Part shown: one piece after another, positions 43,680 through 57,173 of the stretch
Position numbering within the stretch: the stretch's first letter is position 1
Layout: every line of letters starts with the position of its first letter
Assembly: GCF_005843985.1 (NCBI RefSeq)
Contig: NZ_CP040463.1
Location: forward strand, 479,001 to 543,000
Direction of reading: 5' to 3'
DNA length: 64,000 bases
From: Caminibacter mediatlanticus TB-2
GTDB taxonomy: Bacteria; Campylobacterota; Campylobacteria; Campylobacterales; Nautiliaceae
The notes under the pieces: generated by a model
What the model was told of the DNA's origin: nothing
Seen by the model: only the letters and a program-made list of their open reading frames with translations
Databases searched by the model: none
Program-made: the position numbers and the translations under genes

Positions 43680-45386
43680 TTGATAAAAAATATAAAAGAG
43701 TTTTTAAAAGAACCAAAAAAAAGTAAAATTTATAAAATATTAAATGTAAATAACAATGAATTAAAGATTTTACATTATATGCTAAGTTTATATTTAGAAG
43801 GTAGAGAAGATATAAGAGTTAGAGATTTACTTCAAAATATTTATAAAAAAGATTATAAGGATGTTTTTGAGAAAATAAAATATATCAAAAATTTACTTGA
43901 TGAAGGATGGCTTGTATTAAGTGGAATTGGTGTAAAAAGCAGTGATATAACTTTACTTGAACTTTTCAATTCATCAATTTCTTTATCTCTTTCATTCATA
44001 AAACTTCTTGAAAAAGGTGAGCTTGATTTAGTTATTCCAAATAATAAGCCTTATTTAGACCATTTAGAATATCTTCATGATGAGTTTTTAAGAATAGAAA
44101 TTTATGAACAAATTGTTTCTTTAAAAGGAAATTATTCACTTGAATCAGCATCTATTAAAAGACTTCAAAGTAAATTGAAATTAATTGAAAATACTATAAA
44201 AGAAAAAATTAAAAAAACAAAAATTGATTTGCCTGTACTTAATTTTATGATTGAAAATGAGTTTAATGAAAAAGAGGAACTTATTTTTTTAGCATTACTT
44301 AAAGAAGAGTATACAAGTTCTAATGAGAAAATAAGAGAGCTTAATTATCTTTTAAATTTGATAAGTGAAGATGAAATTGAAAGAATTAAAAACCGCTCAT
44401 TTCTTGATGAAAATTCAAAACTTGTAAGAGAAGGTATTATTGATTATGATGAAATTTTTGGTGGATTTGGAGGATATACAAGAATTTATTTTATAAATGA
44501 AGATATTTTAAATGAACTCATTCATCCAAGAAAAAAACATAAAATTCAACATATTGTAAAAGATACAATTTTTGATTTGATTGAACCAAAAGTTTCATTT
44601 GCAGATGTTGTTTTGCCTGAAAAAACTAAAAAGATGTTAAATACTATTTTAAAACAAATAGATAAAAGAATTTTTTCTCTTCTTAAAAAATGGGGTATTA
44701 AAACAAATGAAGATATTGATGCAAAAATTCTTTTTTATGGTGCACCAGGTACTGGAAAAACTATTACTGCTCATTCTATTGCAAAAGAGCTTAATAAACC
44801 AATTCTTTCACTTGATTCAAGTAAAGTTTTATCAATGTATGTAGGAGAGAGTGAAAAAAATGTTAGAAGAATTTTTGATGAATATTATGAAATAAGTGAA
44901 AAAATAAAAACAAAGCCAGTTTTACTATTAAATGAGGCAGACCAGTTTTTATCAACAAGGACTACTTCATCTTTTAGCAGTGCAGATAAAATGCATAATC
45001 AAATGCAAAATATATTTTTAGAACAAATTGAAAATTTTAGTGGAGTTTTAGTAGCAACTACTAATTTGCTTGAAACAATAGATAATGCTTTTTCAAGAAG
45101 ATTTGATTATAAAATAGAATTTGTAAAACCCTCATTTAAAGAAAGAGTTAAACTTTGGGAGCTTAAACTTCCAAAGAATGCTGAGTTTGAAAAAGAATTT
45201 AATATAAAAGAATTAGCAAAATATGAATTAACAGGAGCTCAAATAGAACTTATAATAAAAAATACGGCTTTAAAAGTAGCCCTAAAAAAAAGACCAGTGT
45301 TTACATTAAAAGATTTTAAAGAAGAAATTCAAAAAGAGCTAAAAACTTCATTTGATGCTTCAAAAGAGGTAGGATTTCTCTCTTAA
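43680..45386 (+). CDS. AAA+ ATPase, FtsH/SpoVK-like core, function unknown
   Basis: 568 residues. The N-terminal 300 are helical and of no recognised domain. The AAA+ module begins near 315: VSFADVVLPEKTKKML, Walker A GAPGTGKT near 356, Walker B VLLLNEADQFL near 415 (Asn where most have Asp), sensor VATTN near 459 and arginine fingers AFSRRFD. The C-terminal lid contains ELTGAQIELIIKNTALK. It has no protease motif and no membrane segment. Similar soluble AAA ATPases occur in other epsilonproteobacteria. The start is TTG at 43680, with AAGGGGAG five bases upstream. It is probably a single-gene transcript. Confidence 0.78.
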   Translation: MIKNIKEFLKEPKKSKIYKILNVNNNELKILHYMLSLYLEGREDIRVRDLLQNIYKKDYKDVFEKIKYIKNLLDEGWLVLSGIGVKSSDITLLELFNSSISLSLSFIKLLEKGELDLVIPNNKPYLDHLEYLHDEFLRIEIYEQIVSLKGNYSLESASIKRLQSKLKLIENTIKEKIKKTKIDLPVLNFMIENEFNEKEELIFLALLKEEYTSSNEKIRELNYLLNLISEDEIERIKNRSFLDENSKLVREGIIDYDEIFGGFGGYTRIYFINEDILNELIHPRKKHKIQHIVKDTIFDLIEPKVSFADVVLPEKTKKMLNTILKQIDKRIFSLLKKWGIKTNEDIDAKILFYGAPGTGKTITAHSIAKELNKPILSLDSSKVLSMYVGESEKNVRRIFDEYYEISEKIKTKPVLLLNEADQFLSTRTTSSFSSADKMHNQMQNIFLEQIENFSGVLVATTNLLETIDNAFSRRFDYKIEFVKPSFKERVKLWELKLPKNAEFEKEFNIKELAKYELTGAQIELIIKNTALKVALKKRPVFTLKDFKEEIQKELKTSFDASKEVGFLS

Positions 45387-45557: not shown

Positions 45558-45896
45558 ATGGAAACTATTTTAATATATAGTGCTGGATTAGTTGCTGGGG
45601 TGTTGCTATTGTATTTTTTAGGAATTGCAGTAGCTCCATATAATCCAGGAGAGATTAAAAATGATCATTTTGAGTGTGGATTGCCTCCAAGTAGTGAAGT
45701 GCCATTAAAAGCAAATTTTGGTTATTTCATTTTTGCAATAGCTTTTATTGTGTTTGATATGGCAGGTTTATTTTTTAGTCTGTTTGTATTTGCAGATAAT
45801 GAAAAGGCTCTACTATGGGCAATGATTTTTGGAATACTATTATTTGTAGCAATTACAGTTAGTATGAAGGAGTATAGAAATGCTAAAAGTGCTTGA
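45558..45896 (+). CDS. nuoA: Complex I subunit NuoA
   Basis: Membrane subunit of 112 residues with three helices. The conserved loop YNPGEIKNDHFECGLPPSSE (residues 29-48) carries the family's E-x-x-x-[FY]-E-C-G segment. The FAIAFIVFDMAGLFFSLFVF helix holds the conserved Asp/Glu region. It begins the proton-pumping Nuo operon. The ATG has AAAAAGGAGA upstream. It overlaps nuoB by 17 bp. Confidence 0.95.
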   Translation: METILIYSAGLVAGVLLLYFLGIAVAPYNPGEIKNDHFECGLPPSSEVPLKANFGYFIFAIAFIVFDMAGLFFSLFVFADNEKALLWAMIFGILLFVAITVSMKEYRNAKSA

Positions 45897-46353
45897 TTTT
45901 TTTAATTATGCAAGAAGTAAGTCACCTTGGATAGTCCATTTTTGTAGTGGATGTTGTTCGTTAGAGATGCTTGCAGCAATGGGACCAAGGTATGATTGGG
46001 AGAGATATGGGTATATGATGACTCCAACTCCAAGACAAGCTGATATTATTTTTATTACTGGACTTGTTAGTAAAAAAATTCTTCCAGCTCTACTTAGAAC
46101 ATATGAGCAAATGCCAGAGCCAAGATATGTAGTAGCAATAGGTGCTTGTGCTTATGATGGAGGACCATATAATGATTCACCATCTGTTATAAAAAATATG
46201 ACAGAAATCCTTCCTGCTGATGTATTTGTTGCAGGATGTCCTCCAAAACCAGAAGCAATTGTTGCTGGACTTGAAGAACTTAAAGAAAAAATTAAAAGAG
46301 GTGAGCCGTCAGCTTCAAGTCAAGGCGGTCTTTGGAAACAAATGAAGTTTTAA
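45880..46353 (+). CDS. nuoB: Complex I subunit NuoB (N2 cluster)
   Basis: A 157-residue peripheral-arm subunit that binds the terminal 4Fe-4S cluster N2 next to the quinone site. The cluster cysteines are the tandem pair in SGCCSLEM (near residue 25), one in AIGACAYDGG near 89 and one in VAGCPPKPEA near 119. SPWIVHFCSGCC differs slightly from the usual LACC form and adds another cysteine. TPTPRQADIIFITGLVSKK near 48 is standard. The start lies inside nuoA. Confidence 0.95.
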   Translation: MLKVLDFFNYARSKSPWIVHFCSGCCSLEMLAAMGPRYDWERYGYMMTPTPRQADIIFITGLVSKKILPALLRTYEQMPEPRYVVAIGACAYDGGPYNDSPSVIKNMTEILPADVFVAGCPPKPEAIVAGLEELKEKIKRGEPSASSQGGLWKQMKF

Positions 46354-46362
46354 GGAATGGGT

Positions 46363-48036
46363 ATGAGAGAAGAGATTAAAAACATAATTAATAATTTTGA
46401 TGTTGAATATGTAGAAGATTATAAATCTTGGGTAAAAGCTAAACTTAAAAACAAAGAGGATTTAATTCCTCTCGTTAAAAAATTAAAAGAAGTTGGAGTT
46501 AAGAGTTGTTCAACAGTTTCTCCAACTGATTTTATTGATGAACGAAGAATAGAAGTAAATTATTTTTTAGAGAGTTTAAATCCAAAAATATCTTCAAAAG
46601 AAAAAGAGAAAGTTAATGTATGGTTAAAGGTTGACTTAGATAGAGATTTAGAAAATTGCGAAATTGACTCAATTACACCAATTATGCCAAGTGCAAATTA
46701 TCACGAACTTGAAGCTTATTCTACATATGGTGTTAAATTTAAAGGTCATCCAAATTTGAGATACTTTTTAATAAGTAGAGATTATTATGGAAAATTTCCT
46801 TTTAGAAAAGATTTTGATTGGCAAGAACATGAAAAACATTTAATTGAAAATGTTAATGCAATTACCGAAGAATTTTTAGAAGAGTTTGAAGAACATGAAA
46901 AAAGTGTTGGTCACGAAGGAAGTAGGACAGTTCTTCATTGGGGACCAACTCATCCAGCAAGTGGACCTATTAGACTTAAAGTATTTACAAATGGTGAAAA
47001 TATTGAAAAAGTTGAACCGGATATCGGATATGTATGGAGAGCATTAGAAAATTTATCTGAGAGAAAAGATTTTATAGGAACAATTGTAGCAGTTGAGAGA
47101 ATATGTTTTATGGATAATCCAAATCCTATGATTTGTTATTCGCAAGCTGTTGAAGAGATAGCAGGTAAAGAAATAACTGAATTTGCAAAATATATGAGAG
47201 TAATATTAGGTGAGACTGGAAGAATAGCATCTCATTTAATTTCAATGGGTGGATTTTTTGGAACTATGGGTCTTCAAACATTTTTAATGTGGTGTTTAGA
47301 TGTTAGAGAATATTTTCTTGATGTATTAGAAGATTACTCAGGAGCAAGAATTGCAACTGCTTGTATAGAACCAGGTGGTGTTAGATATCCACTTAATGAT
47401 TATAAATCTTGGTTTAGTGAAATACAAAAAGCAATTGAAAAATGGGAAAAAACAAAACCTGATATTGAAGATATTTTTTTAAAAAATCCACTAATGACAG
47501 TTAGAGCTAAAAATACAGGAGTATTTAGTTTAGAAGATGTTGAAGAGTATTTCTTAGCAGGACCTGTTGCAAGAGCAAGTGGAGCAAAAATTGATGTAAG
47601 AATTGATGAGCCATATGCAGCTTATGATAAGTTAGAGATTGATTATGTTACTTGTGAAAATGGAGATGCAAGAGATAGACTTTATATTATTTATAAAGAA
47701 ATTAATCAATCAATTGATTTAATTAAACAAGCAATGAAAAAAATTAAAGAAGGTATAGAAGCAGGTGAAATGGATCCTAAAAAAGACCATTTAGTAAAAA
47801 TGCCAAGAAGAATGCCAGAAGGTGAGGCTGTTAGTAGAATAGAATGGGCAAGAGGTGAAATTTTAATGCATTTAGTTACTATGCCAAAATCTACCTCACC
47901 TTATAGATTAAAAATAAAAGCACCAAGCGTTAATCACACAATGATGTTAGAAAAACTTTTACCAGGACATACCCTTTCAGATATTCCATTACTATATGGA
48001 AGTATGCATATCTGTCAGGGTGACTTGGATAGATAA
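46363..48036 (+). CDS. nuoCD: Fused complex I subunit NuoCD with unusual active-site residues
   Basis: 557 residues. The NuoC part (about 1-165) has YGVKFKGHPNLRYFLISRDY and FPFRKDF. The NuoD part starts at HWGPTHPASGP (H197). The expected quinone-binding His, four residues after the HPA histidine, is absent (HPASGP instead of HPATHG). VERICFMD (C248, D251) and the C-terminus MHICQGDLDR (C551, D554) place cysteines where [NiFe]-hydrogenase large subunits have the first Cys of each CxxC pair. Normal NuoD has none there. Fusion of C and D also occurs in E. coli Nuo and in HycE. ATG at 46363 with AAGGA six bases upstream is preferred over 46357. Confidence 0.9.
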   Translation: MREEIKNIINNFDVEYVEDYKSWVKAKLKNKEDLIPLVKKLKEVGVKSCSTVSPTDFIDERRIEVNYFLESLNPKISSKEKEKVNVWLKVDLDRDLENCEIDSITPIMPSANYHELEAYSTYGVKFKGHPNLRYFLISRDYYGKFPFRKDFDWQEHEKHLIENVNAITEEFLEEFEEHEKSVGHEGSRTVLHWGPTHPASGPIRLKVFTNGENIEKVEPDIGYVWRALENLSERKDFIGTIVAVERICFMDNPNPMICYSQAVEEIAGKEITEFAKYMRVILGETGRIASHLISMGGFFGTMGLQTFLMWCLDVREYFLDVLEDYSGARIATACIEPGGVRYPLNDYKSWFSEIQKAIEKWEKTKPDIEDIFLKNPLMTVRAKNTGVFSLEDVEEYFLAGPVARASGAKIDVRIDEPYAAYDKLEIDYVTCENGDARDRLYIIYKEINQSIDLIKQAMKKIKEGIEAGEMDPKKDHLVKMPRRMPEGEAVSRIEWARGEILMHLVTMPKSTSPYRLKIKAPSVNHTMMLEKLLPGHTLSDIPLLYGSMHICQGDLDR

Positions 48037-48045
48037 GGAGGAAAA

Positions 48046-49017
48046 ATGAATATTAGTGAAATGCTTTTTTATATTTTAGTTTTTCCAGGTCTTTTATTCT
48101 TACTTGCATGGACTTTTTTTGTGTTTTATTTTTCAAGAAAAACTCTTGCATACATTCATAAAAGGGTAGGACCTTATTTTAATGGGCCTGGTGGTAGTTT
48201 GCAAACAATATGGGATGTTTTTAAATTGTTAACAAAAGAATCAATTACTCCAAAAAGTGCTGATCCATATTTATTTAATATTATCCCAATTATTACTCCT
48301 CTTGTAGCAGCACTTCCTGTTATATTAATTCCATGGACACCACTTATTAATCATGGGCATGCAATTTTAGATACAGATTATGGAGTACTTGGACTTGTTG
48401 TATTAATTGGAGTTGAGCCATTTTTATTATTTCTTACAGGATTTGGAAGTAATAATAAATATTCTTTTCTTGGTGGTATGAGGATACTTGCTCAAATGAT
48501 TTCAATGGAAGCACCATTTTTCTTAGCTGCTTTATCACCTGCGCTTTTATTTGGGACTATGAATTTATATGAAATAATGCATTCAAATACATGGCTTACT
48601 ACGTTAATTTTACTTCCAGGAGCAATTATTTATATTATTGCAATGCTTGGTATTTTAGAGCAACCACCTTTTCATATTCCAGATGCAGAACAAGAAATTG
48701 TTTATGGATTTTATACAGAATATGCTGGAACAAACTATACACTACTTAAATTTGCGGAATTTACAGAAATTTTAGTTGTATCAGCATCAGCTGTTGTACT
48801 TTTTTTTGGTGGATATAGGGGATTGTTTTTTGATAGTTTTATTTGGTTATTTATAAAAATAGCACTTCTTGCAGTTGTAATGGTTGCTATTAGAGCATCT
48901 AATCCAAGACTAAGACTTGATCAAATGCTTAAATTCTGTTGGAGCTATTTAGCACCAATGGCAGTATTGAATTTAGTTTGGGTTACATTTGCAAGAATTT
49001 ATATATTAGGAGCATAG
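48046..49017 (+). CDS. nuoH: Complex I subunit NuoH
   Basis: Eight-helix membrane subunit of 323 residues that joins the quinone cavity to the proton channels. Typical segments are KRVGPYFNGPGGSLQTIWDV then FKLLTKE near 45, IPDAEQEIVYGFYTEYAGTN near 208, and KFAEFTEI. The acidic residues of the E-channel are present. The ATG follows AAGGAGG, nine bases after nuoCD. It is two bases from nuoI. Confidence 0.95.
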   Translation: MNISEMLFYILVFPGLLFLLAWTFFVFYFSRKTLAYIHKRVGPYFNGPGGSLQTIWDVFKLLTKESITPKSADPYLFNIIPIITPLVAALPVILIPWTPLINHGHAILDTDYGVLGLVVLIGVEPFLLFLTGFGSNNKYSFLGGMRILAQMISMEAPFFLAALSPALLFGTMNLYEIMHSNTWLTTLILLPGAIIYIIAMLGILEQPPFHIPDAEQEIVYGFYTEYAGTNYTLLKFAEFTEILVVSASAVVLFFGGYRGLFFDSFIWLFIKIALLAVVMVAIRASNPRLRLDQMLKFCWSYLAPMAVLNLVWVTFARIYILGA

Positions 49018-49018
49018 A

Positions 49019-49525
49019 ATGATTTTTGAAATTGGTGAAAAAATATTTAGAGTTATGAAGGCTTTTAGGGAGCCAAGAATTGCAACAAAAGATATTGTAA
49101 AAGAACCAGCTCATAAATCTCCAATTTTTAGAGGGAGACATGTTGTAAAATATGAAATTTGTACAGGATGTGATGCGTGTAATAAAATTTGTCCTGTTGA
49201 TGCTATAAAAATGAAACCACTTCCAATTAAAAGACCAAATAAAGTTCCAGAAGTAAACTTAGCAATTTGTATTTTTTGTGGATTATGTGAAGATGTTTGT
49301 CCTACAAAGCCAGAAAAAGCAATAAAACTTGCAGGTGGTGATATTGAAATGATAACAGATGGAACAAATAATGCGTTAGATAATTTTTGGGTTAGAGTTG
49401 AGATCCCTCAGGAGTGGATTGAGAAAAAGAAAAAAGAAGAAGAGGAAAAAGCTGCAAAAAGAAAAGCAAAACAAGAAGCTCTATTAAAAGGTGCAGCTAA
49501 CACAATGGGAAAGGATGAAAAATGA
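49019..49525 (+). CDS. nuoI: Complex I subunit NuoI (two 4Fe-4S clusters)
   Basis: A 168-residue ferredoxin-like subunit with two 4Fe-4S motifs: CTGCDACNKICPVD near residue 48 and CIFCGLCEDVCPTKPEKAI near 87. It passes electrons to N2 in NuoB. The C-terminal 40 residues are highly charged (Lys/Glu-rich) and longer than in short homologues. No nuoE, nuoF or nuoG is present beside it, so NuoI may face a donor other than the NADH module. It overlaps nuoJ as ATGA. Confidence 0.94.
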   Translation: MIFEIGEKIFRVMKAFREPRIATKDIVKEPAHKSPIFRGRHVVKYEICTGCDACNKICPVDAIKMKPLPIKRPNKVPEVNLAICIFCGLCEDVCPTKPEKAIKLAGGDIEMITDGTNNALDNFWVRVEIPQEWIEKKKKEEEEKAAKRKAKQEALLKGAANTMGKDEK

Positions 49526-49989
49526 GCGTTTTAATATTAGTTATAGCAATCATTTTAGCTGTTATGAGTTTAACTCAAAAAAATACAGTTGGGGCTGTAA
49601 TTGCATTTGTGATGATGATGTTTTTACTTGGAATTTATTACATTTTCTTAGGTGAGAAGCTTCTTGGATTGTTTCAAATATTTGTTTATACTGGTGGAAT
49701 AGTAGTTTTAACTCTTTTTGGTGTTACAGTTATTGGGGCTAAATTCCCAGAGTTTAAAATTAGACCTTGGGCAATATCAATTGTGACAGTAATTTTAATA
49801 GGACTTATGATTATTCCATTTTTACTTCCAGAAATACCATATGTTGGAAAAATGATACCACTTAAAGAGCAAGTAAAAATATTTACTGATTTTTATGGTG
49901 AAATAGCGATTTTTATGAGTGTGGTAGCTGCGAGTATTCTTTATGGAAGTATTAGAATGCTACATACTCTAAAACATGGAAAGGAATAA
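49522..49989 (+). CDS. nuoJ: Complex I subunit NuoJ
   Basis: A 155-residue membrane subunit with five hydrophobic helices. The third helix region, FQIFVYTGGIVVLTLFGVTV near residue 52, is the conserved NuoJ signature that holds the pi-bulge. It is coupled to nuoI by ATGA and followed after two bases by nuoK, as in other nuo operons. Confidence 0.92.
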   Translation: MSVLILVIAIILAVMSLTQKNTVGAVIAFVMMMFLLGIYYIFLGEKLLGLFQIFVYTGGIVVLTLFGVTVIGAKFPEFKIRPWAISIVTVILIGLMIIPFLLPEIPYVGKMIPLKEQVKIFTDFYGEIAIFMSVVAASILYGSIRMLHTLKHGKE

Positions 49990-49991
49990 AA

Positions 49992-50300
49992 ATGGTACAT
50001 TTTTATATAGATGCGATTGCTGCAATTATCCTTTTTGGAGTAGGGCTTTATGGTGTTACAAGTAAAAGTGATTTTTTAAAAATATTTTTTTCACTTGAAA
50101 TGCTTTTAAATGCTGTAATTTTAATTCTTGCAAGTGCAGCATATAATTTTGGTTTAACAAAAGGTTTAGCTATTGCTTATGTAATTATTGTAATAGCTAC
50201 TCTTGAAGCAGCGGCAGGTGTTTTAATCTTTATCTTAGCAAATAGGATTACTGGGGAAATTATTCCAGATAATTTAGATAAGGCGGTGGAAGATGAATAA
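49992..50300 (+). CDS. nuoK: Complex I subunit NuoK
   Basis: A 102-residue three-helix subunit. FFSLEMLLNAVILILAS (residues 30-46) contains the conserved membrane Glu, and a second Glu lies in IATLEAAAGVLIFILA near 69. Both belong to the proton pathway. Its last codons overlap nuoL by 8 bp. Confidence 0.94.
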   Translation: MVHFYIDAIAAIILFGVGLYGVTSKSDFLKIFFSLEMLLNAVILILASAAYNFGLTKGLAIAYVIIVIATLEAAAGVLIFILANRITGEIIPDNLDKAVEDE

Positions 50301-52143
50301 TGCAGTATTAACATTATTAATTGCGCCATATATTGGAGCGGCGCTTGCATATTTATTTGGAAAAGCAAAAAAAGAACTTGCTTTTTGGGTAGCTGAAATT
50401 ATAGGATTTATTTTATTTATTGCAAGTGTTGTTTTATTTTTAAAGTATTCAAACACACCAATAGATATTGATTATACTTGGATTGCATTTGGTGATATAA
50501 AAATTCCATTTGGGATTTATATAGATCATCTCTCAATTGTAATGTTGCTTGTTGCAACTGGTCTTGGATTTTTAGATATTCATTTTGCTCATGATTATAT
50601 GGGAGAAGACCCAGATACTCCAAGATACTATGCAAAAGTATTATTCTTTATTGGAGGAATGATTTTACTTGTAATTACAAAAGATTTAATTGGTGCATTT
50701 ATTGGTTGGGAGTTTATGGGGCTTGCCAGTTATTTATTAATTAGCTTTTGGTATTTTAAAAACTCAGCAGCAAATGCAGGAATGCAAGCTTTTCTTTATA
50801 CAAGATTTGGTGATATTTTTTTACTTGCAGCAATTGCCTTGCTTTATTACTATGCAGGTACTGTAAATTTAGTAGAACTTAATGAGATGGCAAATAATGG
50901 AGAGCTTAATAAAACATTAGCATTAGTAGTAGCATTATTTATTTTTATGGGTGCGATTGGAAAATCTGGACAATTTCCATTATATCCTTGGCTTATGAAT
51001 GCAATGGAAGGTCCAACTACTGTTTCAGCTTTAATTCATGGTGCTACTATGGTTAATAGTGGTATTTATATTGTAGCAAGATTATTTGACTTTTTCTCAT
51101 ATACAGAAGCTTTATATGTAGTAGCAAATGTAGCTGCCCTTAGTGCATTTATTGGTGCTACATCAGCTCTTGTTCAAAAAGAGATTAAAAAAATCTTAGC
51201 ATATTCAACAATGTCACACTTATCAATTGCATTTGTAGGACTTGGTGTTGGAAGTTTAGCTGCTGGAATGCTTCATTTAGTAAATCATGCTATTTTTAAA
51301 GCTTTACTATTTTTAAGTGCAGGAGCAGTAATTTACATTGCACATCATACAAAAGACGCATGGAAACTTGGAGGTTTAATTAAAACAGCTCCATTTGTAG
51401 CTTTATTTATGGCTATGGGTTCACTAAGTCTTGCAGGTGTCCCACCATTTAGTGGATTTTTCTCAAAAGAGATGGTAGTTGCTGCTGCTTGGGAGTGGGG
51501 TAATGGATTTACAAAAACATTTGTAACAATAGCAGCACTATTATCAATTGCATACATAACAAGACTCTGGATATTAATTTTCCTTGGTGAGCCAAGAAAT
51601 GAAGAATTAAAAGGTAGTGTACACAAACCAAGTAATTTATGGATTAGACTACCTCTTGGAATTTTGGCATTTGTTACATTATTTATTTCTATTTGGCAAA
51701 GTGATATAGTCCATTATATTGTTGGAAAAGAAGTAGTAGAGCCTCATGTAGCTGGGCTTAGTGCATTTATGTTAACAGGAATGTTAATAATTTTTGCAAT
51801 AGTAGTTGGACTTTATTTAAAAGGTTTAAAACTACTTTATAAATTAGTTTCACATCATTTTGTACAAACAATTCATCATATTTTATTTAATGGATATTAT
51901 GTAGAAGCGATGATTACTTGGATATCTAAAAATATAATAGTAAATTCTCTTGCAAAAGCACTTAGATGGTTTGATACTTATGTAATTGATTATATCGTTA
52001 ATAAAACTGTTGATGCTACAAGACTTGTTTATGTTGGATTTAGAGCGGGTCATAGTGGAAAAATTGGTACATATATGGGACAATTTGTACTTGGTGTTGC
52101 AATAATAGTTATTGCTATTTTAATAATAGTAAAGGGGCTGTAA
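50293..52143 (+). CDS. nuoL: Complex I antiporter-like subunit NuoL
   Basis: 616 residues, the largest membrane subunit. It has the Mrp-antiporter core, with FIGWEFMGLASYLLI near 136 (key Glu), GKSGQFPLYPWLMNAMEGPT near 220 (key Lys) and KKILAYSTMSHLS near 299. FSGFFSKEMVV follows. The C-terminal lateral helix and last transmembrane helix (about 515-616) are present, so the coupling arm is complete. The gene starts inside nuoK and ends directly before nuoM. Confidence 0.95.
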   Translation: MNNAVLTLLIAPYIGAALAYLFGKAKKELAFWVAEIIGFILFIASVVLFLKYSNTPIDIDYTWIAFGDIKIPFGIYIDHLSIVMLLVATGLGFLDIHFAHDYMGEDPDTPRYYAKVLFFIGGMILLVITKDLIGAFIGWEFMGLASYLLISFWYFKNSAANAGMQAFLYTRFGDIFLLAAIALLYYYAGTVNLVELNEMANNGELNKTLALVVALFIFMGAIGKSGQFPLYPWLMNAMEGPTTVSALIHGATMVNSGIYIVARLFDFFSYTEALYVVANVAALSAFIGATSALVQKEIKKILAYSTMSHLSIAFVGLGVGSLAAGMLHLVNHAIFKALLFLSAGAVIYIAHHTKDAWKLGGLIKTAPFVALFMAMGSLSLAGVPPFSGFFSKEMVVAAAWEWGNGFTKTFVTIAALLSIAYITRLWILIFLGEPRNEELKGSVHKPSNLWIRLPLGILAFVTLFISIWQSDIVHYIVGKEVVEPHVAGLSAFMLTGMLIIFAIVVGLYLKGLKLLYKLVSHHFVQTIHHILFNGYYVEAMITWISKNIIVNSLAKALRWFDTYVIDYIVNKTVDATRLVYVGFRAGHSGKIGTYMGQFVLGVAIIVIAILIIVKGL

Positions 52144-53571
52144 ATGTTAGCGATGTATCTTATATTTTTACCGATTTTTGCATCGGCTCTTGTTTATTTT
52201 ATAACAAAAAATAATGAAAGCTTTGCAAAATATATTGCACTTGGTTGGTTTATTGTTTTATTTATTATTTCAATTAGTTGGCTAAAAGTTTTACCTGATA
52301 GTGGATTTTTGTTTTTAGGCAATTTTTTAAGCGTACCTCAATTTGGTTTTGAGCTTACTTTACAAATTGATGCATTAAGTGTAGCAATGCTTATTTTAAC
52401 TGCTGCACTTTTAATTTTAGTGGTATTTACCTCTTGGAATGAGAAAAAACAAGCAGCATATTTTAGTTTATTGATTTTATTTAGTGGACCAATTTTTGGT
52501 GTATTCATGACAACTAATGTTTTATGGTTTTTTATGTTTTGGGAATTAACACTTGTACCTATGCTATTTTTGATTGGTATTTGGGGAGCTGAAAATAGAA
52601 TTTATGCAGCAATTAAGTTTTTTATTTATACGCATGTTTTTGCAATGTTTATGTTTGTTGGATTTTATCTACTTTTTAAACAAACAGGTTATTGGGATTT
52701 TACATTAATTAAAGAAGTAGCACTTGCTACACCTGCTCTTATTTGGTGGTTAATGTTTTTAGGTTTTGCAGCAAAATTACCACTATTTCCATTTCATACA
52801 TGGCTTCCTGATGCACACGTTCAAGCCCCAAGTAGTATTTCAGTAATTCTTGCAGGAATTTTATTAAAAATGGGTGCATATGGACTTATAAGATTTACAG
52901 TAGAGCTAATGCCTGTAACTACTTTGCAATTTGCAAAATGGATGTTATTTTTAGGTCTTGCGACAACACTTTATGCAGGATTTTTAGCAATTTATGAAAG
53001 ACATATTAAAAAAATGGTTGCATATTCATCAATTTCTCATATGGGATTAGTGGTTGTAGCGATTTCTACAATGACTTATGATGGGCTTAGCGCAGCACTT
53101 TATGAAATGATAGGACATGCACTTGTGATTTCACCACTTTTCTTAATTGCTGGATGGCTGCATCATAAAACTCATACTTGGTATATGGATGAGATGGGTG
53201 GTATTATGAAAAAAGCACCATATGTTAGTGCTATATTTATCTTAGCAGGTATGGCAGCTCTTGGCCTTCCAGGTACTATGGGATTTGTAGGTGAATTGAC
53301 TATTATTATTTCAGCTGTTAAAGCATATGGTTGGTGGGTTGCTGTGATTGCACTTGCTGGTATGATTAGTGCTGGTTATATTATTTGGGCAATTAGAAGA
53401 AGTATTCATGGTGAAATGTCACCTGTTGTTGCAAAAGCAGATTTTAGTATGAGTTTAGCTGAGAAATTTGCACTTGGTGTATATGCTATTTTAATTGTAT
53501 ATTTTGGTGTAAATCCACAACCAATTTTTGATATAGCAAATAAAGCATTTAGCTTCTTTGGAGGGATGTGA
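52144..53571 (+). CDS. nuoM: Complex I antiporter-like subunit NuoM
   Basis: 475 residues with about 14 helices. WFFMFWELTLVPMLFLIGIW near 126 holds the conserved Glu. AAKLPLFPFHTWLPDAHVQA near 212 holds the pumping Lys. KKMVAYSSISHMGLV near 290 is also standard. The start codon follows the nuoL stop immediately. The stop TGA shares one base with the nuoN ATG. Confidence 0.95.
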   Translation: MLAMYLIFLPIFASALVYFITKNNESFAKYIALGWFIVLFIISISWLKVLPDSGFLFLGNFLSVPQFGFELTLQIDALSVAMLILTAALLILVVFTSWNEKKQAAYFSLLILFSGPIFGVFMTTNVLWFFMFWELTLVPMLFLIGIWGAENRIYAAIKFFIYTHVFAMFMFVGFYLLFKQTGYWDFTLIKEVALATPALIWWLMFLGFAAKLPLFPFHTWLPDAHVQAPSSISVILAGILLKMGAYGLIRFTVELMPVTTLQFAKWMLFLGLATTLYAGFLAIYERHIKKMVAYSSISHMGLVVVAISTMTYDGLSAALYEMIGHALVISPLFLIAGWLHHKTHTWYMDEMGGIMKKAPYVSAIFILAGMAALGLPGTMGFVGELTIIISAVKAYGWWVAVIALAGMISAGYIIWAIRRSIHGEMSPVVAKADFSMSLAEKFALGVYAILIVYFGVNPQPIFDIANKAFSFFGGM

Positions 53572-54899
53572 TGAGTTTTATAATATTAATAGCAGCAGGA
53601 CTTATAGTACCAATTTTTTATAGAAGTAATATTGTTATTGCAAAATTAATTGCAGTAATTGCTTTTTTACTTTCTGCTTATTTTATTTATGTTGGAAATA
53701 GTCTAAATTCTATTTTTCCATTTTTTGCTGTAGATAAAGCTACAATGATTATGGAGTTTGTGCTTTTAGCAACACTTGCGGCAGTTACATTAGCGTTAAC
53801 TGGTTTTGAGAGGCCATTAATAGCGCAAATGTTATTTTTAGCTGGTGCATCTCTTGCATTTGTTGAGACAAACAACTTCTTTTTATATATAGTTTTATTT
53901 GAAGTAATTGCAATTATTTCTTATATCTTAGTTGCAAATATTAGAAACTTTTATAATGCTGAGGGTGCTATAAAAGCATTTATTGCAGGGGCTGTTGCGA
54001 GTGGTGTAATTTTACTTGGATTTGCACTATATAGCTTTGTTACAGATAGTTTTATCTATTCAGAAATGAATGTTGGAGGAAAATATACATTAATTGCAGT
54101 TGCAATTATGCTTGCTGGGATTTTTTATAAATTAACAGTAGTGCCAATGCATGGATGGGCAGCTGATGCATATTCACAAGTAAATCATGCAGCAGCAGCA
54201 ATATTAAGTGGTGTTATTAAAAGTGTTGTTTTATTTGCTACTTTTAAAGCATTTTATAAATTTTTTGTAGAATATCCTACTGCTACTATTTTAATTTTTA
54301 GTTTCTTTGCAATTATAACTATGACACTTGCAAACTTTATGGCATTATGGCAAAAAAGAATTTCAAAAATCCTTGCATATTCTTCTATTGCTCATAGTGG
54401 ATATGCACTAATTCCTTTTGCAGCAGCTGCAAGTGCATATTCATATGCTGGTGTTTTATATTATGCTGTTGCATATATATTTATGCAAACAAGTGTATTC
54501 TTAATTTTAAATGACCTTAGACGCGAACTTGGGGTAAAATATCTTGAAGATATAAAAGGACTTTATAAAAAAGCACCTCTTCATTCATTATTATTTACAA
54601 TCCAAATTTTTTCACTTGCAGGGATACCTTTACTTGCTGGATTTTTAAGTAAAGCAGTTGCTTTTTATGCAGGAATTGATGTAGGACTTTGGCCGATAGT
54701 GTTAGTAGCTTTACTTAATTCAGCACTTGCAGTTGGATATTATGTTTGGATAATTAAACATATTTATTTTGACGAACCAAAAAGTAGTGAAACTATTTCA
54801 ATGTCTTTTGGTAGTTTGCTTGGACAATTAATCTTGCTTGCAGGTACAATCTATTTTGGAATTATCGCAACTGATATTATTAGTGCAACAACGATGTAA
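53571..54899 (+). CDS. nuoN: Complex I antiporter-like subunit NuoN
   Basis: 442 residues with 12-14 helices. FLYIVLFEVIAIISYILVAN near 102 (Glu), KLTVVPMHGWAADAYSQVNH near 186 (Lys) and KILAYSSIAHSGYAL near 264 are the antiporter-family landmarks. I prefer the ATG at 53571 (overlapping the nuoM stop, GAGGGA upstream) to the GTG at 53568. It is the last nuo gene and is followed by pflA. Confidence 0.94.
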   Translation: MSFIILIAAGLIVPIFYRSNIVIAKLIAVIAFLLSAYFIYVGNSLNSIFPFFAVDKATMIMEFVLLATLAAVTLALTGFERPLIAQMLFLAGASLAFVETNNFFLYIVLFEVIAIISYILVANIRNFYNAEGAIKAFIAGAVASGVILLGFALYSFVTDSFIYSEMNVGGKYTLIAVAIMLAGIFYKLTVVPMHGWAADAYSQVNHAAAAILSGVIKSVVLFATFKAFYKFFVEYPTATILIFSFFAIITMTLANFMALWQKRISKILAYSSIAHSGYALIPFAAAASAYSYAGVLYYAVAYIFMQTSVFLILNDLRRELGVKYLEDIKGLYKKAPLHSLLFTIQIFSLAGIPLLAGFLSKAVAFYAGIDVGLWPIVLVALLNSALAVGYYVWIIKHIYFDEPKSSETISMSFGSLLGQLILLAGTIYFGIIATDIISATTM

Positions 54900-54926: not shown

Positions 54927-57173
54927 ATGTTGTTTTTTCTTTTTTTTCCTCTATTTTTATTTGCTCTAAATTTACAAATAGATTATGGTAATGCAAAAAA
55001 GCCATATGAAGTATTAACTTTATATGATAAAAATAAATTTACCTGTTTTGATAGAAATAAAACTATTATTTGTGAGTTTGATAAAGTGCCTATAACTCCT
55101 GTTTTTAAAAATAAAAGCCGCTATTTTTCTATCATTCCTAAATTTGAAGATAAGTTTAGAATTTATATAAGGGTAAAAGGAAATTATAAAATTTTTAGTT
55201 TTAATGATAATTTATATAACAATCCTTTAATAACACCTTTTAAATTAAAAAAAGCAAAAAAATGGGTTATAGTTGTTAATGAACAATTTCTAAGTAAAGA
55301 AAAAAATAAAGGGCTTAATTTTTATTATCATCATACTTATTTGCCTTATGTTGGAGCGATTGATGAGAATCTAAGACCTGTAAATACTCAAATTAGTAAA
55401 GATGTAATTAAATTTTTTGAAATATTAAATTCTTATAAAAAAGGATTAGATGTTTTAAATGAGATTGATAATTTTGTAAAAAAATATCCAAAATCGATTT
55501 TTATTCCAGATATTTTATATTTAAAACTTAAAATTTTAGATAAAGAAAATAGGAGTGAAGATGTAATATCTCTTGGTAAAAAATGGATTAAAGAATATGC
55601 TTTTAATCCAAAATTACCAGAAGTATTATTACTAATTGGAAGTAATTATTCTAAAATGGGGTTTTTAAGTGAAGCAAGTTATTATTTTAATAGAATAATT
55701 ACAGATTATCCTAATACAAAATGGGCATATCTTGCAACAATTTATTTAGCAGACCAATTATATACAACAGGAGATGATAAAAAAGCTTTAAATCTTTATA
55801 AAGATGTTTTATATTCAACTACTGATTTAGATATAGCTTCTCTTGCTGCAAGTAGGCTTGCTCAAAGATATATTGATAAAGGTGAAATAAAAAAAGCAAT
55901 TGAATACTACAAAAAAATATATAAAGCTAATAAAAAGTTTATTTTAAAAGATAAGATTAAAGCTTATGAGCTTGCTAATATGTTAGCTTCTCATAAAATT
56001 TATGATTTAGCTATAAATATAGGAGAAGATTTAATTAAAAGATTAAAAAAACTTGATGATTTGTATGAACCACTTCTTTATAAACTTGCTGTGTGGAGTT
56101 ATGAAAATAAAGATTATAAAAAGTCTCTTTATTTTATAGATAGATATCTAAAAGAGTTTCCATATGGTGATTATTCAGATAATGCTAAATCATTAAGAGA
56201 TAAGATTTTATTTAATTTACCTGAGAGTAATTTAACAAAAAAACTAAATCAAATTGAAAAAATTATAAAAAATTATGAAGGTGAAATTAAACAAAAAGCT
56301 ATTGTTAAAAAAGCAAGAATTTTATTCAAATTAAAAAAATATGATGAAATTTTGAAAATGGAAGATTTGTTAAACAAAATTCCTGATAATATTTTTCCTG
56401 ACAAAAAAGAATTCTTATTAAAAGTAAAAAAAGAGGCTTTAAAAGAACTACTTAAAAATAAAGAGTGTTTTAAAGCAATAAAATTGCTAAAAAAATATAA
56501 AATTATTTTAGATAAAAAATGGGATGAAGAGATATATAATTGTGCAATGAGAACTAAAAATTATGAAATTGCTTCAAGAGTTTGTAATAAATATCTTAAT
56601 GACCCTAATGATGAGGTGTTTATAAAATGGATGCAAAGAAAAATAGAAGCTTTGTGGGGGATGAGAGATTATAAAAATTTATCTTTGGCTGTTGATGATT
56701 TATGTAGCGTGAAGAAAACTAAGTGTTATAAATATTTAAAATATAAATTTTTTGCTTTATGGAATTTAGGGGAATATAAAAAAGCCCTAAAAGTTGCAAA
56801 AGAATTAGAAAAATTTAATAATTTCGAAAATGTGGATGTATTTATAAAAATAGTAAATTACGCTTTAAATAATAAAGATAATCTTCTTGCAGCTACATAT
56901 GCTAAAAAAATAATTGAACTTCAAAATAGATATAAAGCTTATCCATATTCACCATTTGTAGATTTTACATTTGCAAAATATACTGAGAATAGACAAGAGG
57001 CAATTAAGGTATTAAAAGATTTATTAAATCGAGTAAAAGGAGAAGATAAAGCAAGGGCATACTTTATGCTTGCAAATTTAACAAAAGATAAAAAATATTT
57101 AAAAGAGTGTTTAAAAATTAAAAATTCTACTTTATGGAAAGGTTTATGCAGGGATGCTATGGATTTATTTTAG
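54927..57173 (+). CDS. pflA: Paralysed-flagellum protein PflA (TPR-rich)
   Basis: A 748-residue exported protein. It has a signal peptide (MLFFLFFPLFLFA), an N-terminal beta-rich part (to about 160) and many helix-turn-helix TPR units (about 165-748), for example ALNLYKDVLYSTTDLDIASL. In C. jejuni and H. pylori, PflA lies directly after nuoN. There it is a periplasmic scaffold of the enlarged epsilonproteobacterial flagellar motor, needed for rotation but not for filament assembly. The gene position, size and fold support the same role here. It overlaps miaA at the 3' end by 17 bp. Confidence 0.8.
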   Translation: MLFFLFFPLFLFALNLQIDYGNAKKPYEVLTLYDKNKFTCFDRNKTIICEFDKVPITPVFKNKSRYFSIIPKFEDKFRIYIRVKGNYKIFSFNDNLYNNPLITPFKLKKAKKWVIVVNEQFLSKEKNKGLNFYYHHTYLPYVGAIDENLRPVNTQISKDVIKFFEILNSYKKGLDVLNEIDNFVKKYPKSIFIPDILYLKLKILDKENRSEDVISLGKKWIKEYAFNPKLPEVLLLIGSNYSKMGFLSEASYYFNRIITDYPNTKWAYLATIYLADQLYTTGDDKKALNLYKDVLYSTTDLDIASLAASRLAQRYIDKGEIKKAIEYYKKIYKANKKFILKDKIKAYELANMLASHKIYDLAINIGEDLIKRLKKLDDLYEPLLYKLAVWSYENKDYKKSLYFIDRYLKEFPYGDYSDNAKSLRDKILFNLPESNLTKKLNQIEKIIKNYEGEIKQKAIVKKARILFKLKKYDEILKMEDLLNKIPDNIFPDKKEFLLKVKKEALKELLKNKECFKAIKLLKKYKIILDKKWDEEIYNCAMRTKNYEIASRVCNKYLNDPNDEVFIKWMQRKIEALWGMRDYKNLSLAVDDLCSVKKTKCYKYLKYKFFALWNLGEYKKALKVAKELEKFNNFENVDVFIKIVNYALNNKDNLLAATYAKKIIELQNRYKAYPYSPFVDFTFAKYTENRQEAIKVLKDLLNRVKGEDKARAYFMLANLTKDKKYLKECLKIKNSTLWKGLCRDAMDLF

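Follow-up and report, generated by a model that had tools for sequence, protein, structure and literature searches.

We have analyzed a window of 64,000 nucleotides (positions 479,001 to 543,000 of contig NZ_CP040463.1) in the 1.69 Mb genome of Caminibacter mediatlanticus TB-2, a member of the Nautiliaceae. Positions given below refer to this window. On its forward strand, at 45558-54899, lies a complete nuoA-B-CD-H-I-J-K-L-M-N operon in the standard order (Table 1). The operon is directly preceded by an AAA+ ATPase gene and directly followed by a gene for a TPR protein. Both neighbours are kept in most of the Nautiliaceae loci, and the ATPase is absent from this place in the carriers of the operon that belong to other families.

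Table 1. Features of the nuo locus, with positions in the window.
Feature	Position	Strand	Remarks
AAA+ ATPase with winged-helix domain	43680-45386		
nuoA	45558-45896	+	
nuoB	45880-46353	+	motif FCSGCCSLE
nuoCD, fused NuoC-NuoD	46357-48036	+	start placed at 46363 in the first-pass annotation; the ORF may begin at 46357
codons 197-203 HPASGPI, beta1-beta2 loop	46951-46971	+	one-residue deletion at the quinone-binding His
codons 246-251 RICFMD, L1 position	47098-47115	+	C248-x-x-D251 (C248-F-M-D251); F249 at Nqo4 Y87
codons 549-557 HICQGDLDR, L2 position	48007-48033	+	C551-x-x-D554 (C551-Q-G-D554)
nuoH, membrane anchor, complex I type	48046-49017	+	162 bits to E. coli NuoH, 54 to MbsM
nuoI	49019-49525	+	two [4Fe-4S] cluster motifs; presumed ferredoxin entry
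nuoJ	49522-49989	+	
nuoK	49992-50300	+	
nuoL, antiporter-like pump subunit	50293-52143	+	
nuoM	52144-53571	+	key pump Glu/Lys conserved with respect to E. coli NuoM
nuoN, antiporter-like pump subunit	53568-54899	+	
TPR protein with DUF7494	54927-57173		

The module that distinguishes the 14-subunit complex I was looked for through NuoF and NuoG. No NuoF was found in the 13 Nautiliaceae genomes searched, and the same search detects NuoF in other families. The matches to NuoG in the source genome span the molybdopterin part only, as expected for other oxidoreductases. The absence of nuoEFG was reported in 2009 for Nautilia profundicola, where the partial complex was already noted (PMC2628731). 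The accessible portion of that report makes no mention of the active-site residues of the complex and gives nuoK as missing, contrary to the Caminibacter operon, in which NuoK is present.

Translated from 46363, the fused nuoCD gene gives 557 amino acids followed by a stop, with C248, F249 and D251 inside ERICFMD and C551 and D554 inside HICQGDLDR. The final Arg of the latter is the C-terminus of the protein, without any C-terminal maturation extension. The first-pass annotation of this DNA had placed both C-x-x-D motifs where the large subunits of [NiFe] hydrogenases have their CxxC pairs. We have aligned the protein with about 40 canonical NuoD/NuoCD from Campylobacterota, with Nqo4, a 49 kDa subunit, MbsL, MbhL and HycE, and with the three group 4 hydrogenases that the source genome encodes. 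The comparison with MbhL, HycE and the group 4 enzymes bears the placement out, C248 and C551 occupying the first Cys place in the L1 and L2 pairs, and D251 and D554 the second. In [NiFe] sites the first Cys of each pair are terminal Ni ligands and the second ones bridge Ni and Fe. As the NiFe ligands of HycE and MbhL stand at these four positions, the four residues would by homology share one pocket. Canonical NuoD was given in the first-pass annotation as having Asp and Val in place of the two cysteines, and this is what we found in the roughly 40 sequences, with Asn for Asp in a few and either Val or Ile at the C551 position. D554 is not distinctive, because complex I and MBX are also acidic (Glu or Asp) at that position.

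The annotation was also right in that HPASGP lacks the second His of HPATHG, but the loss goes further. The His is removed by a deletion (HPxxHG to HPA-SGP), the quinone Tyr is replaced by F249, and the Asp that pairs with the quinone His (D160 in bovine numbering) is replaced by Thr. After H197 no His, Glu or Asp remains in the loop HPASGPI as a proton donor. In the canonical NuoD/NuoCD/49 kDa rows of the alignment (about 40) the quinone His and Tyr are kept, as is the partner Asp in the five examined for it. That His and Tyr are the ligands of the quinone head group (PMC8119997; PMC7684303). Among the canopy residues, as defined in PMC9474812, the Arg is retained as R497, as in hydrogenases, and in place of the Asp found in hydrogenases and in many complex I there is H549 in NuoCD and Tyr in its sister clade. 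The score of NuoCD against the curated NCBIfam NuoD model was 311 bits, below the cut-off of 360. An AlphaFold2 model had a mean pLDDT of 69, with values below 50 at 193-202, 236-268 and 551-557, so that it is unreliable at the loop and at the Cys/Asp sites and does not bear on whether the four residues meet, and a Foldseek search with it confirmed the NuoCD/HycE fold and nothing further.

Absence of the cysteines from close relatives had been named as damaging to the first-pass reading. Instead, C248, F249, D251, C551, D554 and the losses of the quinone residues were the same in all of 31 relatives (56-92% identity), among which the codons of the Cys and Asp varied synonymously (TGT/TGC and GAT/GAC). 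A frameshift or an assembly error behind the pocket residues was considered and rejected, as all 31 relatives agree. Among the six Cys of the D domain, only C248 and C551 are invariant, and the remaining four vary. Still, about 40% of the columns of the D domain are invariant in this set, and the invariance is therefore only moderate support for function.

The small subunit is also a mixture. The motif FCSGCCSLE of NuoB has the C25-C26 tandem found in complex I (GLACCAIE) plus C22 as in MbsJ (FCTGCGGIE), and is invariant in the family. C90 and C120, which complete the cluster ligands, are invariant together with C25 and C26. Within the Nautiliaceae NuoB is strikingly conserved, with mostly 96-99% identity versus 76-92% for NuoCD. 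In the membrane arm, the Glu and Lys positions aligned in NuoM are pump residues.

The family was found in 14 of 397 Campylobacterota genomes, nine of them Nautiliaceae (all those sampled) and the other five from two other families. It is discrete, with at least 56% identity inside and the next matches in these genomes at about 34%. In addition, each of the five carriers outside the Nautiliaceae has a canonical complex I, which scores far above the cut-off. The presence of two non-equivalent enzymes per cell in these five suggests that they differ in acceptor or donor. A second complex I was considered for the source genome and rejected, none being found there, and no Nautiliaceae match reaches the cut-off for a canonical one. 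The search of plasmids gave only matches of about 30% to the family. Other relatives of the large subunit are present in the phylum. Five of the 397 genomes have an MBX/MBS-like one (loci L063, L135, L136 and L137 and genome G227), with RICVPE...GICPPE in those read, and at L063 the gene sits in an operon with Mrp-type subunits. Three group 4 [NiFe] hydrogenases, all intact, are encoded in the source genome (L006, L007 and L008, with DPCVSC, DPCMSC and DPCYSC), matching the coo/ech/hyc trio given for N. profundicola (PMC2628731).

In the tree of NuoD alone the family forms a clade (100/100) that adjoins the hydrogenases, outside the group of MBX plus Nuo (92/87). In the NuoB+D+H tree it joins Nuo (84/73), which remains one clade without the family (100/100). 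The group 4 hydrogenases form a separate clade that does not include the family (100/99). The NuoH tree grouped the family with Nuo (SH-aLRT 96), and its union with MBX was rejected (AU p 0.02). By AU tests the placements from NuoD alone and from NuoB+D+H are both compatible with the data. The trees have long branches and thin sampling outside the Campylobacterota, and do not include FpoD, the EchE of Methanosarcina, Hfo or the 11-subunit Nuo of Bacillota. NuoI was left out because canonical genomes gave much longer, NuoG-sized proteins. The reference PDB chains include a fly sequence with one wrong letter, and the last four residues of Nqo4 as aligned are those that we take to be correct; neither affects the family. 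The trees support a position that is outside all the NuoD sampled and intermediate between the group 4 hydrogenases and complex I, in an order that would be either of the two topologies. Either one would fit a single loss of the second Cys before the split of MBX, the family and Nuo, and a single loss of the first Cys in Nuo, with convergence also possible.

The best-characterised match of the two-Cys pocket pattern, judging from the motifs, is MbsL of the MBS of Pyrococcus furiosus (PDB 6u8y, MbsL and MbsJ). MbsL has RICVPE ... NCPPD, that is CxxE...CxxD, and has neither the quinone His nor the Tyr. As in MBS, the first Cys of both CxxC pairs is kept with acidic residues in the second places, the quinone His and Tyr are absent, there is no NADH module, and the small subunit has a C-x-G-C motif. 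There are also differences. The Nautiliaceae NuoCD has CxxD...CxxD, complex I-type subunits stand in place of the Mrp-type membrane subunits and the MbsM anchor, and the p-cluster of MBS has three Cys ligands while NuoB, with C26 kept, would have four on hand. For the archaeal MBS, a large subunit in a half-way state had been described earlier (PMC7684303), a precedent that the first-pass annotation missed. By its motifs, this state is found in archaea (MBS) and, as CxxE...CxxE, in the MBX-like operons of Campylobacterota.

The operon also resembles the 11-subunit complex I-like enzymes, such as the Nuo of Desulfitobacterium hafniense (PMC11238625), in the nuoABCDHIJKLMN order without NuoEFG, in the type of NuoH and NuoM and in the tandem N2 Cys. 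It differs from them, D. hafniense being compared by description only, in having lost the quinone triad and in still having two of the hydrogenase Cys. The Hfo of Bathyarchaeia also has 11 Nuo/Fpo-type subunits in Nuo/Fpo gene order and has been read as connecting the hydrogenases to complex I (PMC7886697), but Hfo, again compared by description only, has all four NiFe Cys and the Nautiliaceae NuoCD two. With the group 4 hydrogenases (MbhL, HycE and the three of the same genome) NuoCD shares the C248 and C551 positions and the canopy Arg, but it lacks the CxxC pairs and the loop Glu and falls outside their clade. Eleven Nuo subunits in one operon and the tandem Cys with two more N2 ligands are those of complex I, while NuoD departs from it in the triad (gap, Phe and Thr), the NiFe-type Cys, the NCBIfam score and the clade. 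Two of the four NiFe Cys and no quinone residues are what MBS/MBX have, without their Mrp module and MbsM anchor. We have assigned the enzyme to neither, because it departs from complex I in quinone residues and clade and from MBS in membrane module and anchor. The earlier description as part-way between group 4 hydrogenases and complex I stands for the residues, the hybrid NuoB motif and the trees, which place the family outside sampled NuoD. It has to be tempered since MBS had already shown the state (PMC7684303), D554 is ordinary, and NuoH, NuoM, the gene order and the tandem N2 Cys are complex I-like.

We consider it very probable that this is a ferredoxin-linked, proton-pumping enzyme, not a hydrogenase, with a non-canonical acceptor site. 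Between ferredoxin, with NuoI as the entry point, and a hydrophobic acceptor seated in the cavity of NuoB, NuoD and NuoH, electrons would run over the two clusters of NuoI and the N2-type one of NuoB, and this redox step would power proton pumping by NuoL, NuoM and NuoN. The acceptor would be bound without the canonical His/Tyr/Asp triad, in a pocket that, as in MBS, is conserved in a half-hydrogenase state. The direction could be either one. In an autotroph with the reductive TCA cycle, the forward reaction and an uphill one, in which menaquinol reduces ferredoxin and the proton gradient pays for it, are equally possible. The full nuoABCDHIJKLMN set without NuoF or NuoG, the invariant pocket, the complex I-like NuoH, the pump residues of NuoM and the tandem N2 Cys all argue for it.

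As to the acceptor, we prefer, with slightly more doubt than trust, the same 11-subunit enzyme working with menaquinone handled in a non-canonical way. Menaquinone is favoured because of the NuoH type, the tandem N2 Cys and mqnC, a gene of the menaquinone pathway that the genome has (MqnC match of 515 bits, above the cut-off). In the remodelled site H549, D251 or D554 would perhaps be substitute proton donors. The quinol-linked polysulfide reductase of N. profundicola (PMC2628731) also counts for menaquinone. Against it stand the loss of all three quinone residues, as in MBS, which works without quinone reduction (PMC7684303), and the MBS-type extra Cys in NuoB. The canonical complex I in five of the five carriers outside the Nautiliaceae hints at another acceptor or donor.

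Polysulfide is the other candidate, favoured because of the pocket type and the sulfur-reducing hosts. The complex could be a bacterial counterpart of MBS that uses reduced ferredoxin to reduce polysulfide (sulfane sulfur), pumps ions and has its catalysis at the NuoB cluster, and we hold this possible, if distinctly less probable than menaquinone. The residue losses are the same as in MbsL, the CxGC of NuoB is of MbsJ type, the hosts are vent sulfur reducers (PMC2628731), and in the carriers outside the Nautiliaceae a quinone-type complex I is present separately. In one of these a CoA-disulfide-reductase-like ORF lies 37 bases after nuoN (L113:18072-19001), a possible sulfur link seen once. 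However, MBS catalysis has been assigned to a cluster with three Cys ligands only (PMC7684303), while C26 restores the tandem pair of complex I in NuoB, and NuoH is complex I-like and not MbsM-like. Besides, N. profundicola has Psr for sulfur (PMC2628731), and true MBX-like operons are separately present in the phylum.

It is also conceivable, although improbable, that the family is a living third lineage, placed between complex I and MBS/hydrogenases and with the membrane arm and N2 motif of complex I, in which the former NiFe pocket is still used, via a dithiol or metal centre of C248/C551 (with D251/D554), for a non-canonically bound acceptor. A new centre as such, whether a C248-C551 redox dithiol relaying electrons from N2 or a mononuclear metal site of the 2-Cys/2-Asp type, seems to us improbable. 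The NiFe ligands of hydrogenases occupy these four positions, both Cys and both Asp are invariant, and R497 is retained as in hydrogenases, but the equivalent C85A/C385A double mutant of MBS is still active with a model trisulfide (PMC7684303), all complex I have an acidic residue at the D554 position, and so many D-domain columns are invariant that invariance alone is weak. We find it unlikely too that this is an ordinary quinone-reducing 11-subunit complex I whose Cys are relics and whose site drifted without functional change. Gene order, NuoH, NuoM and tandem N2 Cys would agree with it, but the quinone His, Tyr and Asp, kept in the NuoD/NuoCD/49 kDa sequences checked, are all lost, the replaced residues are conserved rather than drifting, and the family is outside the sampled NuoD. 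A cryptic [NiFe] hydrogenase, for which two terminal-type Ni ligand positions remain, was rejected as most improbable, because both bridging Cys are Asp and hydrogenase chemistry is not expected, the loop Glu is missing as well, and the genome already has three intact group 4 hydrogenases.

In the published series from hydrogenase (four Cys) to MBS (two) and complex I (none), the changes in the membrane arm and in the active site go together. The Nautiliaceae family separates both, with the complex I arm and N2 motif present and the active site still half-way. Next to Hfo with four Cys, MBS with two and complex I with none, it fits as a two-Cys member with a complex I arm. The half-way pocket was previously known mainly from an archaeal sulfur-reducing enzyme, and what is unusual here is the combination of an MBS-like pocket, a complex I N2 motif with the MbsJ Cys, and a complex I membrane arm without NuoEFG. 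A limited literature search, with few subscription journals, gave no paper on these residues in Nautiliales. Since the family occurs in culturable bacteria, its acceptor is measurable. The Campylobacterota contain, besides, a second lineage of fused NuoCD (L056-L062, e.g. L060) that is canonical-like, with RLNYC, in which Asn replaces Asp and a Cys comes right after the quinone Tyr.
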